DNA of 32,859 nt, from the NCBI GenBank assembly GCA_023249675.1, contig JAHFCE010000031.1, forward strand, positions 1 to 32,859, read 5' to 3'. Positions 1,356 to 9,349 of the stretch are shown in pieces. Position numbers and translations under genes: made by a program. Source of the stretch: Elusimicrobiota bacterium (GTDB lineage Bacteria; Elusimicrobiota; Elusimicrobia; UBA1565; UBA9628). The notes beneath the pieces are model-generated. The model was not told where the DNA came from. It made no database searches and was given only the letters and a program-made list of their open reading frames with translations. How positions within the stretch are numbered: position 1 is the first letter of the stretch; each line of letters opens with the position of its first letter.

Positions 1356-2031
1356 GGGATGGCTCCGGGTCGGGGTGGAAGAGCACGACGAACTCGCCGA
1401 GGATCTCGGCGCGCGCCGCGAGGTCCGCGCGCACCGAGGCGACGGTGCCGCGGATCCACTCCTCGTGAATCTTGGAGAGCTCCCGGACGGCGACGCATTG
1501 GGCCCGCTCTCCGAGTACCGCGACCGCGTCATCGAGAAATTCCACGACGCGGAAGGGCGATTCATAAACGACGATCGTCCGTTTGAGAGCCTTCGCGGCT
1601 TCAAGCGCCTTGCGGCGCTTGGACGCCGTGCGCGGCAGAAAACCGAGGAAGAGGAAGGAGTCTCCCGGCAGGCCGGAGCCCGCGACCGCAGCGCCGACGG
1701 CCGTCGGACCCGGCAGCGAAGTGACCGGCAGGCCCTCGCGCCGGGCGGCGGCCACGGCTTTGCGCCCGGGGTCGGAAACGCCCGGCGTGCCGCCGTCGGA
1801 GACGAGGCTCACCGCGTCGCCGCGGCGCACGCGCTCAAGCAGCTTGTCCACGGAGCGCGGGTCGTTCTCATCATAGCGCTCAAGCGGCGCGCCGAGGCCG
1901 AAGTGGCTCATGAGATGGCGCGTGCGGCGCGTGTCCTCGCAGAACACGACCGCAGACTCCTTGAGCACGCGCAGGGACCTCGCGGTCATGTCCTCAAGGT
2001 TGCCGAGCGGCGTGGGGACCACGAAGAGCAT
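1348..2031 (-). CDS. rsmI: 16S rRNA (cytidine-1402-2'-O)-methyltransferase RsmI
   Basis: RsmI uses S-adenosylmethionine to methylate the 2'-OH of C1402 in the 16S rRNA decoding centre. The sequence shows the tetrapyrrole-methylase fold as used by RsmI: PTPLGNLED near residues 6-14, CEDTRRTRHLM near 31-41, the SDGGTPGVSDPG loop, LPGPTA, and FLGFLPR. The 227 residues fall short of the usual 270-290, mainly because the C-terminal extension is missing. There is no convincing ribosome binding site at the ATG. A 44-nt gap separates it from the secreted protein upstream, and its end overlaps the Sua5-type gene by 8 nt. Confidence 0.94.
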   Translation of the reverse strand: MLFVVPTPLGNLEDMTARSLRVLKESAVVFCEDTRRTRHLMSHFGLGAPLERYDENDPRSVDKLLERVRRGDAVSLVSDGGTPGVSDPGRKAVAAARREGLPVTSLPGPTAVGAAVAGSGLPGDSFLFLGFLPRTASKRRKALEAAKALKRTIVVYESPFRVVEFLDDAVAVLGERAQCVAVRELSKIHEEWIRGTVASVRADLAARAEILGEFVVLFHPDPEPSHA

Positions 2032-2075
2032 CAGCGGCTCGCGGGCCGCCGGAATAGGCCGGTCATGGCCCTATG

Positions 2076-3113
2076 TTACTTCTTTTTTTCGGGGTCCAGG
2101 AGGCTGCGGGCCTCGGCCTCGCCGACCATATCGATGAGCTGGGCGGAAGCACCCTTGCGCATCATCTCATCGCCGGTTTGGCGGGCGTACCGGACGAGCA
2201 GGGGGATGATCTTGGGGCTGCGCGTGCTAAAGGCCGCGCTGGCCCAGTACAGGCGTTCGGTGTCGCTTGCGGCGGTGTCATGCTCGCGCACGAGCGCCTC
2301 GGCCTCCTCGTCATTGGAGGAGGCCCCGATCTTGAGGGCGAGGGAGTGGCGGATCTCGGCGTCGACCTTCGGGTCGCGCAGCAGCGCCAGCATCTGGGCG
2401 CGGGTCGCGCGCGCGTCCGCGAGGTCGATCGGGGCCGCGGCCGCGAGCGCCGCACGCTCACTTGAGATCAACTCGCCTGAGTCGCTCCAGGCCCGGAGCT
2501 TGGGCAAGGTCTGGCGCCAAAAATAGCGTCCAAGCAAGGCCCCGATCTTGGCGCTTTCCCGGCCTTTGCGCTCGAGCAAGGACAGGGACTTCTCTCCGTC
2601 CCATTGGGCGAGCACCGACAACGCCTCGTACTGCGTCCACCAGGCGTTGCGTTCCGACATCATCGTGGTCTCGGTGGCGCCGCTCGCGCCGAATTTGCGC
2701 TCGGCGATGGAGCGGATCAGGGGCAAGGCGGCGCGCGCGCGCAGGCGGAAGGCCCCGTTGATGCCGAACAGCTGAGCCTCGGGCTCCGGTTGGCGCAGGT
2801 AGGTCATGAACAGCGGCTCGAGCTGGGGGCTGCCGGGCGCGATGCGTTCAAGCGAGGCCATCACCGAGTCGCGCGTGTACTTATCCGTGAAGCGAGAGAA
2901 CAAGTCGAAGAGATTGGCCACGTCCTGGCCCGAGACGGGTGCCGTTTTGGCGAGCTGATCGAGTATATTGGTCCGCTGCGCGGAATCGTCAATTTCAGTG
3001 AAACGGTCCTTGAGCACGGAGACGCTGGCTGCGGCGATGGGTTCGGCGCCGGGCGCTTCCGCCGCCCGCGCGGGCGCAGACAGGAGCAGAACGAGGAGGA
3101 CAGTATTGATCAT
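2076..3113 (-). CDS. Secreted alpha-helical repeat protein of unknown function
   Basis: I do not recognise a named family. The 345-residue product begins with a clear signal peptide: a hydrophobic stretch VLLVLLLSA followed by PARAAEA with a likely cleavage after ARA. The rest is Ala/Leu/Arg-rich and predicted all-helical, with recurring paired-helix units such as AEIRHSLALKIGA and SPKIIPLLVRYAR, which resemble HEAT/armadillo repeats. It ends in a charged PEKKK tail. The start at 3113 is chosen over the longer frame to 3206 because it puts the signal peptide first, has GGAG 6 nt upstream and overlaps the nagZ stop as ATGA. Its place directly behind nagZ hints at a cell-envelope role, which is an inference. 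Confidence 0.8.
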   Translation of the reverse strand: MINTVLLVLLLSAPARAAEAPGAEPIAAASVSVLKDRFTEIDDSAQRTNILDQLAKTAPVSGQDVANLFDLFSRFTDKYTRDSVMASLERIAPGSPQLEPLFMTYLRQPEPEAQLFGINGAFRLRARAALPLIRSIAERKFGASGATETTMMSERNAWWTQYEALSVLAQWDGEKSLSLLERKGRESAKIGALLGRYFWRQTLPKLRAWSDSGELISSERAALAAAAPIDLADARATRAQMLALLRDPKVDAEIRHSLALKIGASSNDEEAEALVREHDTAASDTERLYWASAAFSTRSPKIIPLLVRYARQTGDEMMRKGASAQLIDMVGEAEARSLLDPEKKK

Positions 3114-4576
3114 GATTTTCTCCGGTCCAAAACGCGGGACAGCGCCGCCTCGAGGCTGACGAGGCGGTAGCCGGCGGCGTCCACAACGGTCATCGTCTGG
3201 GGGCAAAGGTCGAGATCCCAGGACGATCGAATCAAGACAGCCGCGGTTTTGGCCGCGGCCGTCTTGGCGAGCAGCCGCAAAGCGGCGGCCTGGCCCGGGA
3301 AGCGCCGGGCCTCGAACGAGAAAAAGACGACGCGTTTCGCCCGGCGCGTGAGCTCGGGCAGGCGGCCGAGGTCCGCGCTCGTGATCGGCGCGCGGGTAAA
3401 CGCGCAGCCGGACGCCAGACGGCGCACGAGGGCCTCGGGACCGCCGGGGCCGCCCTCGAAGGTGAAGCGCTCGCGTACTTCTTTGAAATCGGGGAGCACG
3501 ACGAGTGTTTCCGGGGAAAAGGGAATGGGAAGGCGCGTTTTTCCATGCCGTGAGATAACGACGGCCTTGTCTGCGATGCGGGCAGATAGAGTGGCGCCCT
3601 CGGAGGGTTTGGTGGCGGGTGCTATGCGTCGGTGAATCAGGCGGCTGATGCGCGCGTCAGCGGCGGCCAACTGTTCCTCGGGCGCGCCGGCCTCGCGCAG
3701 AAGAGCCGCCGCGTCGGCCATGCCCGAGAGGTCGTGCGCGATCATGAGCACGTCGTGGCCCGCGTCGAGGCACTTGAGCGCGGCCTCGGCCACTGGCCGG
3801 CGGCGGGTGATGGCACCCATGCACAGGTCGTCGCTGACGATGAGCCCGTCGTAGCCGAGCCGATCGCGCAGGAGGCCGCGCACGATCTGAGCCGAGAACG
3901 TCGCCGGCTCGGAGTCGAACGCGGGAAAGCGGACGTGCGCGGTCATCACCGCGTCGACACCCGCCGCGCAGGCGGCGCGGAAGGGGGGCAGATGCGCGCG
4001 TAAAAACGCCGCGCGCGGCAGTTTGATCGTGGGCAGGTCGATGTGGGCGTCTACGGTTGCGGCCCCCTTGCCGGGGAAGTGCTTGGCGCAGGCCGAGACG
4101 CCGCTGTCCTGCATCCCGCGGATGAAGGCCGCGCCGAGGCGTCCCGCCAAGGCCGGATCAGCTCCGAAGGACCTGATCCCGATGCCGGGATTGTAGTCCT
4201 TCGTCGCCACGTCAAGCACGGGGGCCAGGTTCATGCGGATGCCGAGCGGCGCCAGCTCGCGCGCCATCTGGCGGCCGACGGCGTAGGCGAGCTTCGGGTC
4301 GCGCGCGCGGCCCAAGGCGGCGTTGCCGGGAAACGCGGTCACTCCGCTCTTAAAGCGCAGAACCCAGCCGCCCTCATGGTCGATCGCGACGAGCAGGGGC
4401 CGGCCGAGGCGCTGCTCGAGCTCGGCGACGTAGGCCTTGGTCTGCGCGGGCGTCTCGATGTTGCGCGCGAGCAGCAGGACGCCGGTCGCCCCCGTGGACT
4501 TGAACAGGGACGCCGTCTGGCGCGACGGTTTGAGGCCGTAGACGCCGAACATGAACAAACGTCCCGGATCGGTCAC
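3110..4576 (-). CDS. nagZ: Beta-N-acetylhexosaminidase NagZ, glycoside hydrolase family 3
   Basis: NagZ removes N-acetylglucosamine from muropeptides during peptidoglycan recycling. The 488-residue protein has the family 3 barrel with AIDHEGGWVLRF, MNLAPVLDV, the KHFPG loop (165-169) and VSDDLCMGAI. By family knowledge the nucleophile is Asp249 of SDD, and Asp176/His178 (V-DAH) form the NagZ-specific acid/base dyad. Position 170 is Lys where the family usually has His (KHFPGHG). About 150 residues follow the barrel, so this is the longer two-domain form. There is no signal peptide, so a cytoplasmic location is expected. The start is GTG at 4574-4576, with no ribosome binding site and a -10-like hexamer 6 nt upstream. 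It is the first gene of the minus-strand operon ending in glyA. Confidence 0.93.
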   Translation of the reverse strand: MTDPGRLFMFGVYGLKPSRQTASLFKSTGATGVLLLARNIETPAQTKAYVAELEQRLGRPLLVAIDHEGGWVLRFKSGVTAFPGNAALGRARDPKLAYAVGRQMARELAPLGIRMNLAPVLDVATKDYNPGIGIRSFGADPALAGRLGAAFIRGMQDSGVSACAKHFPGKGAATVDAHIDLPTIKLPRAAFLRAHLPPFRAACAAGVDAVMTAHVRFPAFDSEPATFSAQIVRGLLRDRLGYDGLIVSDDLCMGAITRRRPVAEAALKCLDAGHDVLMIAHDLSGMADAAALLREAGAPEEQLAAADARISRLIHRRIAPATKPSEGATLSARIADKAVVISRHGKTRLPIPFSPETLVVLPDFKEVRERFTFEGGPGGPEALVRRLASGCAFTRAPITSADLGRLPELTRRAKRVVFFSFEARRFPGQAAALRLLAKTAAAKTAAVLIRSSWDLDLCPQTMTVVDAAGYRLVSLEAALSRVLDRRKS

Positions 4577-5715: not shown

Positions 5716-7545
5716 CTACCGTGGCGTCTGGCTTGCCTGCCCCTGTTCCTCCTCTAGGAGCTCCTGGAGAAGGAGCAGTCCTCGCGCGAGTTTGTCGGCG
5801 GCCAGAGACGCCGGGGCCGGGCGCAGGCCGGCGTAGAAGCGGCTGAGGCTTGAGCTGCGGTTCATCGCCTGTATGATAAACTTCGCGGCCTGCCGGGCAC
5901 TGTCGGAGTTGGAAAAGCCCGGGCTTCGGAAGATGTCGTGGGCGTTGGAGATCAGTTGCCTTTCCTGGGCGGGGAGGGCGGCGACGCCGGGGGCTTTGTC
6001 CCACACCGTGTTGAAGTACGGCTTGCCCAGCCGATGCATGAGATTGCTTGCGTTGCAGCCCGCCACCGTGGCGGGCATGCTCGCCTGGGAAAAGACGTAC
6101 TCGAACAGGCTCTGGGGCAGAGCGCCGACCCGCACGATGAGGATGTCGTCGGGCTGAAGCTTCTGCAACTCGCGGGCCAGGTCCGGCGTATGGACGGAGA
6201 CGACGCGCGCCCGCGCGCCGCTAGCCAGACGCACCTCGAAGGGCAGGCCCAGCGCGTGGCGCAGCCAGGTCAGTGCCGCTCCGGCCCATCCGACTCGGAC
6301 CGCGGAAGCGGAGTCGTCGCGGCCGAGCTCCATAAGTTCCTGCGTGTTGAGGTTGGAGATGAGGGGGATAACGACGCTCCCCCGAAACGACTTGGGCGAG
6401 GACATCTGCGCCTCGTGGACCGCGCCGATCAGGTTTCTCAGCTTGTGCACCCCGTTCTCCCCGAGCCCGTAGGCCGGCAGGAGCTCGTAGCCCTCCTGGC
6501 CCGCGAGCACCGCGCTGAGCCCCGCGGCCTTACGCGCAAGTCTCTTGGTGCCCGACAGCTCCTGCTCGACGAAGGCGGCGGGGTCGGCCGGGCTGGGTAT
6601 GTCGTAGACGTAGCCGAGTTCCCGGAATTCTGGATCGAGGTCGACGAACCCGGTCTTTTTGGTCCAGAGGGAGCCGCGGGCCCAGCTCTTTGGCTGCAGG
6701 CGCAGGTATTGCTCGACGCCCGTGGGGACGTCGTAGTGGTAGCCGTCCTCGGCGCCGGTGATGCCGAGCTTCACATTCCGGCTCCCGCCATGCTTGAGAA
6801 AGGCCTTAGCGCTGATCGCCGTGACGCCCAAGGCGGCGAGCGTCTGCACGTTCTTGCCGCGCGGGTTGAAGCCCGGGAGCAGGTTGCCAAGTTTCGCCTT
6901 CGTATCCTGCTGGTAAACGAGTTCGATGCGGCCCTCGTAGCCGAGCTGGCGCAGGCGCTTGAGCACGGTCACCGAGGCGGCCTGATGGCCGTAGCCGGGG
7001 GCGGAGTTGACGAAGAGGCGTATGACCTCGTGGCCGCGCAGAAGCTGGAGGATTTTGGCGCGCGCCCGGGCTTCCCCGTCCGCGCCGTCGAAGATCGACG
7101 CCCCTTCGAGCGCCGTCGCATCCGGCTGTCCGGCGTCGCCGCTCAACGTGTTGTCATCAGTGGCAATCGGCGGTCCTCGCGGGGTCTTGCCGGAGGAAAG
7201 TGGAGCCTTTGAGGCCGCAGCCTCGTGCTCCGCGCCGGGCGAAGCGGAGCCCGTCCGGGCCGCGGGCGCCGCCACGGCAGGAGCCACGGTCAGCGCGGCC
7301 GGCATGGCCTGCGCCGGGGACGCGAGCGCGGGCGCTTGAATGGGGAGGATCGAGCCCTGTTGTAACACACCGATTTTGGGCGCGGCGCCGCCGAGCGGTT
7401 GGGCATCGAGCGTCGGGACGGTTGCCGGGGCGCCTGGGCGCCCAGGGCTCACGGAGGCGGCGCTCTCAGCGCTCGCTGTTTGCGCGGCGGCCGGGCGGGG
7501 CACCGCGCAGAGGAGCGCGGCGAGAAACGGGGACAGTCCTCTCAT
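5716..7545 (-). CDS. Large secreted protein with Ala/Pro-rich N-terminus and glycosyltransferase-like core
   Basis: I do not recognise a named family. The 609-residue protein starts with a signal peptide (FLAALLCAVPRPAAA), then has about 150 residues rich in Ala, Pro and Ser. A folded core follows. It begins with VIRLFVNSAPGYGHQAAS, in which GYGH (184-187) precedes a helix and a strand IELVYQQD. This resembles the N-terminal Rossmann half of GT-B enzymes such as MurG. Near residues 500-520, AGCNASNLMHRLGKPYF resembles the nucleotide-sugar-binding motif of the C-terminal half. Both resemblances are by eye, so enzyme activity is only an idea. The ATG at 7545 is chosen over the frame start at 7590 because of the signal peptide and the promoter 6 nt upstream. 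Confidence 0.78.
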   Translation of the reverse strand: MRGLSPFLAALLCAVPRPAAAQTASAESAASVSPGRPGAPATVPTLDAQPLGGAAPKIGVLQQGSILPIQAPALASPAQAMPAALTVAPAVAAPAARTGSASPGAEHEAAASKAPLSSGKTPRGPPIATDDNTLSGDAGQPDATALEGASIFDGADGEARARAKILQLLRGHEVIRLFVNSAPGYGHQAASVTVLKRLRQLGYEGRIELVYQQDTKAKLGNLLPGFNPRGKNVQTLAALGVTAISAKAFLKHGGSRNVKLGITGAEDGYHYDVPTGVEQYLRLQPKSWARGSLWTKKTGFVDLDPEFRELGYVYDIPSPADPAAFVEQELSGTKRLARKAAGLSAVLAGQEGYELLPAYGLGENGVHKLRNLIGAVHEAQMSSPKSFRGSVVIPLISNLNTQELMELGRDDSASAVRVGWAGAALTWLRHALGLPFEVRLASGARARVVSVHTPDLARELQKLQPDDILIVRVGALPQSLFEYVFSQASMPATVAGCNASNLMHRLGKPYFNTVWDKAPGVAALPAQERQLISNAHDIFRSPGFSNSDSARQAAKFIIQAMNRSSSLSRFYAGLRPAPASLAADKLARGLLLLQELLEEEQGQASQTPR

Positions 7546-7551
7546 GGGTCT

Positions 7552-7581
7552 AGGATAAGTCCGGAGACGGCTATTTTTCAA
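7552..7581 (-). promoter_or_regulatory. Promoter of the secreted glycosyltransferase-like gene
   Basis: Minus strand: -35 TTGAAA (7576-7581, 5 of 6), an 18-nt spacer and -10 TATCCT (7552-7557, 4 of 6). The -10 ends 6 nt before the ATG at 7545, and no Shine-Dalgarno sequence is present. The message should therefore be leaderless. Confidence 0.6.
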
Positions 7582-7617
7582 GGCCCCCAATATTTGCCGG
7601 CCTTGAGGCGGATAGCG

Positions 7618-7661
7618 AGACCTAACTCTAAAAAAGTCTTGACTTTTTTAGAGTTAGGTCT
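7618..7661. repeat. Perfect 21-bp inverted repeat upstream of the DUF4143-type ATPase gene
   Basis: The arms 7618-7638 and 7641-7661 are exact reverse complements (AGACCTAACTC, then six A, then GTC) separated by only TT. The element is AT-rich compared with its surroundings. It ends 12 nt before the ATPase ATG. A -35-like TTGACT (7639-7644) lies at the centre of the dyad, and TAATAC (7661-7666) follows after 16 nt, ending 7 nt before the ATG. It could be an autoregulatory operator, a hairpin, or the end of a transferred cassette. Confidence 0.9.
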
Positions 7662-7673
7662 AATACTATACCC

Positions 7674-8891
7674 ATGATCAAGCGCCTCATCAGCCGCCAG
7701 CTCGAGACCATCATGCGCCACGGCAAGATGGCTTTCTTAAGCGGGCCCCGGCAGGTCGGCAAGACCACGGCGGCGCGTGAGTTTCAGAAGACTTTCTCCC
7801 AAAGCCTGTATTTGAATTGGGATATCATCACGGACCAAAAGAAGCTGCTCAAGAGTCCTTACTTTTTCGAGGAAGGAAATCGCGATCCTGCCCAGCCGTT
7901 CCTCGTCGTTCTCGATGAAATCCACAAGTACGCACGTTGGAAAAATTATCTCAAAGGCGCCTATGACGGCTACCACCGGGATTTCCGTTTTCTGGTGACC
8001 GGCAGCGGTCGGCTCGATTTATTCAGAAAGGGCGGCGACAGCCTGCTGGGGCGCTATTTGGGAGCGCCGCTCTTTCCGCTCTCGGTGGGCGAGCTCTCCG
8101 GGCGCCTGCCTTCGTGGGCGCAATTTCAGGAAAGTCTTCGGGACCCTCCGGCTGCAAAGGCGGGCACCCCCGAGGCTTACCGAGGACTCTTACGCTTCAG
8201 CGGCTTTCCTGAACCCTTTCTTAAGGCGGACGCTCGATTCTATAACGCATGGTTCCAGGAGAGAAAAAGCGTACTTGTTCGCGAGGATATCCGTGACGCG
8301 GCCAATATTCGGGATATTTCCCTGATGGAAATTCTCTCGCATCTGGTCCCGGACAAAGTGGGCGCCCCCCTGTCGATCAACTCCCTGAGGGAAGATGTCG
8401 GCGTCGCTTTCGAGACGGCCCGCGATTGGCTGCTGCTTCTTGAGCAGTTCTTCTATCTTTTCCGGATCGCGCCGTTTTCGGGCTCGGTGGCCCGGGCTTT
8501 GCGGAAGGAATCCAAGGTCTATCTCTATGATTGGGTCGAGGTGCCCCAGGAGGGCTTCCGCTTCGAGAACATGGTGGCACTTCACCTGCACAAGGCCGTC
8601 CAAACCTGGCGTGCCATGGGAGAGGGAGACATCGGGCTCCATTACGTGCGAGATAAGGAAAAAAGAGAGGTGGATTTTCTTCTCACCGAGAAGAACCGCC
8701 CGATCTGCTTGATCGAGTGCAAGCTGTCGGACACGGCCCTGTCGCCGGCGCTGAGCCATTACCAAGACCGGCTCCGCGTCCCCGTAGCCGTCCAGCTCGT
8801 CCATGCCGGCGGGATATGTCGCAAGACCTCCCGCTCCGGGGCGACGCAATGGGTGATCTCCGCGGATCGGTGGCTAGGAATTCTTCCTTAA
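7674..8891 (+). CDS. AAA_14/DUF4143-type ATPase with C-terminal nuclease-like motif
   Basis: The 405-residue protein has the family's two halves. The N-terminal AAA-type ATPase shows Walker A GPRQVGKTT (24-32), Walker B FLVVLDEIHKY near 82-92 and a sensor-like FLVTGSGRLD. The C-terminal DUF4143 region has EVDFLL (332-337) and ECK (348-350), so Asp334, Glu348 and Lys350 form a PD-(D/E)XK-type signature. Such proteins are widespread and scattered between genomes; their function is poorly known and often linked to mobile or defence DNA. The coding DNA is less GC-rich than the neighbours and uses more AT-ending codons. With the palindrome immediately upstream, this suggests acquisition by transfer. 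No partner gene accompanies it. Confidence 0.93.
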   Translation: MIKRLISRQLETIMRHGKMAFLSGPRQVGKTTAAREFQKTFSQSLYLNWDIITDQKKLLKSPYFFEEGNRDPAQPFLVVLDEIHKYARWKNYLKGAYDGYHRDFRFLVTGSGRLDLFRKGGDSLLGRYLGAPLFPLSVGELSGRLPSWAQFQESLRDPPAAKAGTPEAYRGLLRFSGFPEPFLKADARFYNAWFQERKSVLVREDIRDAANIRDISLMEILSHLVPDKVGAPLSINSLREDVGVAFETARDWLLLLEQFFYLFRIAPFSGSVARALRKESKVYLYDWVEVPQEGFRFENMVALHLHKAVQTWRAMGEGDIGLHYVRDKEKREVDFLLTEKNRPICLIECKLSDTALSPALSHYQDRLRVPVAVQLVHAGGICRKTSRSGATQWVISADRWLGILP

Positions 8892-8905
8892 GCTGAAGGC
8901 GGAAG

Positions 8906-9349
8906 CTAGAAGGGAACTTCTTCGATCGTGTCGCTGTCGCCCGAGGGCTTCGACGCGGCGCCCGCGGGGCGGCTCATGCCGCCGCCCGAACCGCCTTCGC
9001 GCTTCTCAAGGAATTGGAAGTCATCGACATAGACGACCATCTTCGACGCCTTTTTCCCGTCTTCCTTGCCGGCCCACTCTTCGAGGACAAGGTGGCCCTC
9101 GACGTAGACCTGCTGTCCTTTCTTCAGGGATGACTCGACGAGGTCGGCCATCTTGCGGCCGGTCTCGCGATTGAAGACTTTCAGATCGACCCACACCGGA
9201 GCGTCTTCCCACTCACCGCTCTGCTTGTTCTTCCGGCGGTTGTTGACGGCGAAGCCGACGTTGGCGACCTTGCCGCCGTTGCCGAAGGTTTTGATTTCCG
9301 GGTCGCGGGTGAGACGGCCGATCAGCATGACTTTGTTTAAGTTCGCCAT
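8906..9349 (-). CDS. ssb: Single-stranded DNA-binding protein
   Basis: SSB coats single-stranded DNA in replication, recombination and repair. The 147-residue protein has the OB fold start NKVMLIGRLTRDPE, FAVNNRRKNK, WVDLKVFNRE and the YVEGHL strand. A Gly/Ser/Pro linker leads to the acidic tip ending EEVPF, equivalent to the usual DDDIPF partner-binding tail. The ATG has GGAG 7 nt upstream and a separate promoter, so unlike several neighbours it has a real leader. It lies convergent to the ATPase gene, 14 nt apart, with no obvious terminator between them. Confidence 0.97.
   Translation of the reverse strand: MANLNKVMLIGRLTRDPEIKTFGNGGKVANVGFAVNNRRKNKQSGEWEDAPVWVDLKVFNRETGRKMADLVESSLKKGQQVYVEGHLVLEEWAGKEDGKKASKMVVYVDDFQFLEKREGGSGGGMSRPAGAASKPSGDSDTIEEVPF

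Follow-up and report, generated by a model that had tools for sequence, protein, structure and literature searches.

What does a long perfect palindrome do directly in front of a DUF4143-type ATPase gene? In the window, by which we mean the whole 32,859-nucleotide stretch of the Elusimicrobiota contig JAHFCE010000031.1 that was analysed, the palindrome occupies 7618-7661, between a leftward gene starting at 7545 and the ATG at 7674 (Table 1). Its two arms of 21 nt each are 100% complementary around a 2-nt loop (TT), and when the 100 nt in front of the gene are shuffled 60 times with dinucleotides preserved, the real dyad exceeds the shuffled sequences by 14.7 s.d., so that the preliminary description was right to place it beyond chance. 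The same holds for the promoter proposed there, with a -35 spanning the dyad centre and a -10 abutting the right arm: the TTGACT/AATACT pair has 9/12 consensus matches, and promoter-like sites in 7400-9000 number 2 against a shuffle mean of 0.3. The first of the two central bases is T in 45/63 aligned operators. Given the positions of the -10 and the ATG, transcription would begin roughly where translation does and the mRNA is probably leaderless. A dyad that overlaps the core promoter of its own gene has the layout of an autoregulatory operator, and we consider it likely that the palindrome is the site to which the DUF4143 protein binds to repress transcription of its own gene.

Table 1. Features of the palindrome, the promoter and the gene, in window positions.
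Feature	Position	Strand	Remark
Left arm (candidate operator)	7618-7638		outer AGACC 7618-7622
Central TT	7639-7640		not symmetric; gives TTGACT its direction
-35 element TTGACT	7639-7644	+	across dyad centre
Right arm	7641-7661		outer GGTCT 7657-7661
-10 element AATACT	7662-7667	+	17-nt spacer from -35
AAA_14/DUF4143 gene, 405 aa, PDC-S01-like	7674-8891	+	mRNA probably leaderless
Residues 1-205, AAA/STAND-like nucleotide-binding part	7674-8288	+	Walker A 24-31, D81-E82
Residues 206-292, winged-helix part	8289-8549	+	AlphaFold model
Residues 246-258, predicted recognition helix	8409-8447	+	246, 247, 248, 252 covary with operator bases
Residues 293-403, PD-(D/E)XK-like nuclease domain	8550-8882	+	E298, D334, E348, K350

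The assignment of the gene to a DUF4143-type ATPase, made at first from the translation, is confirmed by Pfam matches to AAA_14 (1.7e-25; 90 bits, gathering 27) and DUF4143 (6.2e-24; 85 bits, gathering 28.1). All seven PADLOC models of PDC-S01 matched as well, four at E values of 8e-49 to 2e-17 and the others weakly, and the best of them (8.2e-49, residues 1-286) places the protein in that family by profile. An AlphaFold model built from 36 sequences (pLDDT 92, pTM 0.92) predicts an AAA/STAND-like part, a winged helix that contains helix 246-258, and a nuclease-like domain. Residues 293-403 carry what we take to be a PD-(D/E)XK motif, the motif that the literature also gives for PDC-S01; its four catalytic residues are invariant in 36 aligned sequences, pointing to a putative nuclease. 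The gene had been called an orphan, which is correct in that it belongs to no operon and incorrect in that the genome holds 6 DUF4143 matches. Its lower GC, from which transfer had been suggested, is real in 300-nt windows (0.51-0.61 in the gene, 0.65-0.76 on the left side), but it is weak evidence of transfer because the ssb gene to the right is also at about 0.59-0.64.

The preliminary description had suggested searching relatives for copies in front of AAA_14/DUF4143 genes, and this search bears the association out: when as many as 3 mismatches are allowed, 7 of 196 relatives carry a single copy of the palindrome each (reversed-pattern control 0), and all seven copies adjoin a DUF4143 gene or a remnant of one. 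Three stand just before orthologues that are 85% and 78% identical (G000, G071, G047) and one precedes a DUF4143-type gene of 371 aa (G125); another lies before an internally deleted copy (G011) and another is fused to a decayed copy (G053), while in G045 the palindrome stands by itself, the DUF4143-type gene that follows after about 100 nt being a member of a distant subfamily. A scan of a genome collection for AAAAAAGTCNNGACTTTTTT returned at least 112 sites. Among the matches listed, a DUF4143-type ORF starts within 60 nt downstream in 50/112, one further DUF4143 ORF is cut by a contig end (L105) and two sites have a remnant (L053, L091); the other 59/112 listed have neither a DUF4143 gene start nor a remnant, some of them lying inside ORFs or between genes, and are surely in part chance or terminator-like. 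The record titles among these listed sites name Deltaproteobacteria, Betaproteobacteria, Acidobacteria, Myxococcota, Ignavibacteria, Aminicenantes, Elusimicrobia and others; most of the records are metagenome bins, so that single taxonomic assignments may be wrong. A protein search added a chlamydial plasmid gene with a similar element upstream. Viral contigs gave 0 matches to the exact patterned palindrome and 13 distant relatives. Judged from the company that its copies keep, the palindrome belongs to the DUF4143 family and not to this genome.

We note in passing that decayed copies of the gene often keep a near-intact palindrome (L053, L040, L043, L041, L049; at L041 and L049 the palindrome has no gene of its own), and that two of the deletions begin near the right arm. 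In an elusimicrobial record (L089) the palindrome pattern lies at 1896-1915 and is followed, 91 nt downstream, by an ORF (2006-3388) for another ATPase, which has the P-loop GRRRCGKS and perhaps belongs to a related family of archaeal-type ATPases.

The association was also examined from the side of the gene, in 114 homologue loci (34 + 80) that were not chosen for a dyad; the gene was located in 112 (2 were missed), and in 111 of them it is preceded by 100 clean bases. A dyad at p<=0.01 was found in 50/111 of these upstreams as compared to 31/400 control genes, a contrast that is conservative since the controls came partly from loci picked for palindromes, and dyads with z>8 in 16/111 as compared to 2/400; the other 61/111 had no dyad at p<=0.01. 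The right ends of the DUF4143 dyads mostly fall within the last 30 nt. The core AGTCNNGACT is present in 19/112 homologue upstreams, in 18 of them at -38 to -40 from the start codon, and each of 23 permuted palindromes is present in 0 or 1 of the 112. A replication on 56 further genes (55 loci and the chlamydial plasmid gene; one of the loci, L384, is the G125 gene already met) gave the core motif in 18/56 and all permutations in 0. Several dyad types can be told apart, namely AGTC-NN-GACT with varied arms, GCAAA/TTTGC, TGGTTG and others, and they cluster on the protein tree (37 changes, as compared to 80.5 in shuffles). One genome, G026, holds three of them: a first-type element (AGTC-NN-GACT) at L016, a second (GCAAA/TTTGC) at L194 and a third (TGGTTG) at L249. 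Two other loci (L024, L196) have in place of a dyad a direct repeat of about 20 nt, of the GACTTTCTACCGGCCATACCAT type, whose second copy lies over the -35.

The geometry of the first-type elements (n=67) is that of a promoter. Counted from the dyad centre, an outer GACT lies at -31 in 27/67 and an AGTC at +27/+28 in 23/67, giving four symmetric half-sites, TAAAAT lies at +21/+22 in 17/67, and the start codon at +33/+34 in 44/67, some start codons having been chosen by script and a minority of them being probably wrong. From these positions the -35, the -10 and the start of transcription all fall within the operator. In the window the arm ends are AGACC/GGTCT in place of the outer GACT/AGTC.

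Are the arms themselves under selection as a pair? In 63 distinct elements of the 67, arm complementarity at 10, 11, 12 and 13 nt from the centre is 79, 84, 83 and 62%, against an expected 28, 32, 57 and 29% (p 0.002 each), and the compensatory signal continues at 14-17, 19-21 and 28-31 nt. Compensatory changes of this kind, together with 21 perfect pairs, would also fit a selected hairpin, acting either as an RNA terminator or attenuator or as extruded DNA cut by the nuclease domain. We consider this very unlikely. The promoter starts inside the palindrome, so that the gene's own mRNA would be without it, and none of the 4 terminator-like sites listed by an intrinsic terminator scan lies at the palindrome; many operators are moreover imperfect beyond 13 nt from the centre, and the covariation with helix residues described below points to the reading of bases.

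Alternatively, the palindrome might be an end or a target site of a gene that moves as a compact element, which the preliminary description had offered as its second explanation. In the window, homology with three other loci (L008, L009, L043) begins with the left arm, and in general the homology between copies runs from the outer edge of the operator (-53 to -75) to a point near the stop codon, also where the copies are 90-94% identical in DNA and the flanks unrelated (L031-L199, L012-L014, L029-L192); up to 22 matches are found per genome. These edges at first seemed decisive for a mobile element. That reading was dropped after the ssb gene was used as a control: in the genus its homology breaks off just as abruptly (about -50 to stop) between copies that are 83-94% identical, and the edges at the DUF4143 gene are therefore not special. 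The inverted repeats of a transposon are likewise wanting, with the palindrome absent from the 3' end and present only once in the genome, where it matches nothing but itself, and a transposon end would not need the conserved promoter spacing. Attempts at empty sites showed no precise excision. The left neighbour (5716-7545) had no match in 18 other genomes of the genus and the flanks of L031 scatter over contigs; the loci of G026, G032 and G036 have undergone rearrangement, and at L334, the only candidate for an empty site, about 180 and 330 nt of flank are missing as well. We accordingly hold a role of the palindrome in the movement of the gene to be quite unlikely.

Several observations were made on the neighbourhood in the course of these comparisons. 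The leftward ORF at 5716-7545 (609 aa) has a signal-peptide-like start and no Pfam match. Of the ssb gene (8906-9349 in the window; L158-L168), only about 50 nt upstream and the ORF are common between species, while the neighbours change; a second ssb copy is syntenic, and the first may itself travel. In G032 there are two near-identical DUF4143 copies (L332, L333 and L288, on C30, C38 and C59) whose flanks seem to be exchanged relative to G036, which would seem to be recombination or misassembly.

Residue-level covariation of half-site bases with protein columns was run after a domain-wise correlation and was not preregistered, and phylogeny was corrected for by simulating characters on a tree from which the winged helix had been left out. 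After correction, residue 248 covaries with base 12 (z 7.6), 252 with base 13 (z 5.9), 264 with base 11 (z 4.3) and 247 with base 11 (z 3.2), and by summed covariation residues 248, 247, 252 and 246 rank 1, 5, 6 and 8 of 405. The predicted recognition helix 246-258 holds 4 of the top 20 covarying residues (p 0.0023); we quote this whole-helix value, since the span 246-252 that gives p 1.4e-4 was picked after the ranks had been seen. The pairings behind these values are simple: T248 occurs with A12 in 33/35, A248 with C12 in 4/4, E247 with G11 in 9/9 and N247 with C11 in 7/8. The helix letters HKT pair with GGA at L137, L207 and L124, which lie on separate branches, and in the GCAAA/TTTGC type, outside the covariation set, HRA is found in 18/25, in line with TGC. 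Residues outside the helix (308, 165, 219, 52) covary too.

The code was then applied to 23 first-type elements of the replication, with near copies (>75% identity) and unpaired positions left out. For base 11 it was correct in 10/12, as compared to 5 for the majority base and 8 for the nearest protein; for base 12 in 9/13, as compared to 10 and 9; and for base 13 in 5/11, as compared to 3 for the majority base and 5/11 for the nearest protein. This partial replication makes the code a lead, strongest for base 11.

It might be argued that the palindrome is bound by a transcription factor of the host instead of the DUF4143 protein. Repressors of any kind usually have a palindromic site over the promoter, and the domain-wise correlation, in which the winged helix had been expected to lead, shows no preference for it: the N-terminal AAA half tracks the operator best (beta 0.43 as compared to 0.17), and the winged-helix domain gave the largest value in 10/200 half-samples. 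A host factor would nevertheless have only one site in the genome, the same core stands before DUF4143 genes in many phyla, and the bases of the half-sites vary together with the helix that the gene itself encodes; we regard a host factor as unlikely. The operator for self-control, the first of the two explanations in the preliminary description, fits the promoter overlap, the covariation within the dyad and that between operator and helix.

We thus return to the autoregulatory operator. As far as sequences can speak, it has in its favour the dyad, its link to one gene across phyla, the promoter geometry, the compensatory arms and the half-site/helix covariation. On this model a symmetric oligomer of the DUF4143 protein would bind the palindrome, with the recognition helix of the winged-helix domain making the contact. 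The bound protein would lie over the -35 and, in many homologues, over the entire core promoter as far as the start of transcription, and we infer that the outcome would be repression and not activation of its own leaderless mRNA. Repression would be released once the ATPase engages its trigger. More tentatively, we speculate that the gene is a self-wired cassette, a possible but doubtful extension, in which a code pairing residues 246-248 and 252 with half-site bases 10-13 lets every ATPase-nuclease recognise the operator of its own gene, diverged codes stop the paralogues of one genome from cross-repressing one another, and each copy works at once in a new host.

The DUF4143 family is very common, uncharacterised and suspected of phage defence. 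A conserved operator would serve as a DNA ligand in work with the purified protein, as a reporter of its state and as a route to the derepression signal, while the covarying residues represent a testable specificity code that could explain the spread of one gene across phyla and the coexistence of many copies. The available parts of the literature on DUF4143, COG1373, AAA_14 and PDC-S01 describe no operator for the family. PDC-S01 itself, a single-gene PADLOC candidate, resembles the protein in its profile matches and in the fusion of an ATPase to PD-(D/E)XK (PMC12988326); the accessible portion of that paper gives it fourth place in frequency among defences across prokaryotes as a whole, does not mention regulation or an operator, and describes experimental validation as pending for most such candidates, whose defence activity is itself unproved.

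Structural comparison places the model near archaeal Walker ATPases: its residues 1-292 align with 2qen (Z 15.7, rmsd 4.8, 252 residues) and 2fna (Z 14.7, rmsd 4.7, 249 residues), at 14-17% identity and in rows that stop short of the C-terminal nuclease part. The order of STAND/MNS proteins, nucleotide-binding and then helical and winged-helix domains, is found here (NLR cores reach a Z of about 12-13); the C-terminal sensor repeats of that class are not, residues 293-403 forming a single alpha/beta nuclease-like domain and the chain ending at 405. The top Foldseek rows were Orc1/Cdc6 initiators on origin DNA (2v1u, 2qby; E 8e-8, 3e-7), which combine AAA+ and winged helix with DNA. Their TM-scores are low (0.27-0.33), making them a loose fold parallel only, and a replication role for the DUF4143 protein is not implied.

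For the regulatory arrangement itself, the nearest parallels are the autoregulated operators of toxin-antitoxin and restriction-control systems, where a dyad overlapping the module's promoter is bound by one of the proteins that the module encodes. Here, in contrast, regulation would fall to the effector ATPase-nuclease itself, and no partner gene would take part.
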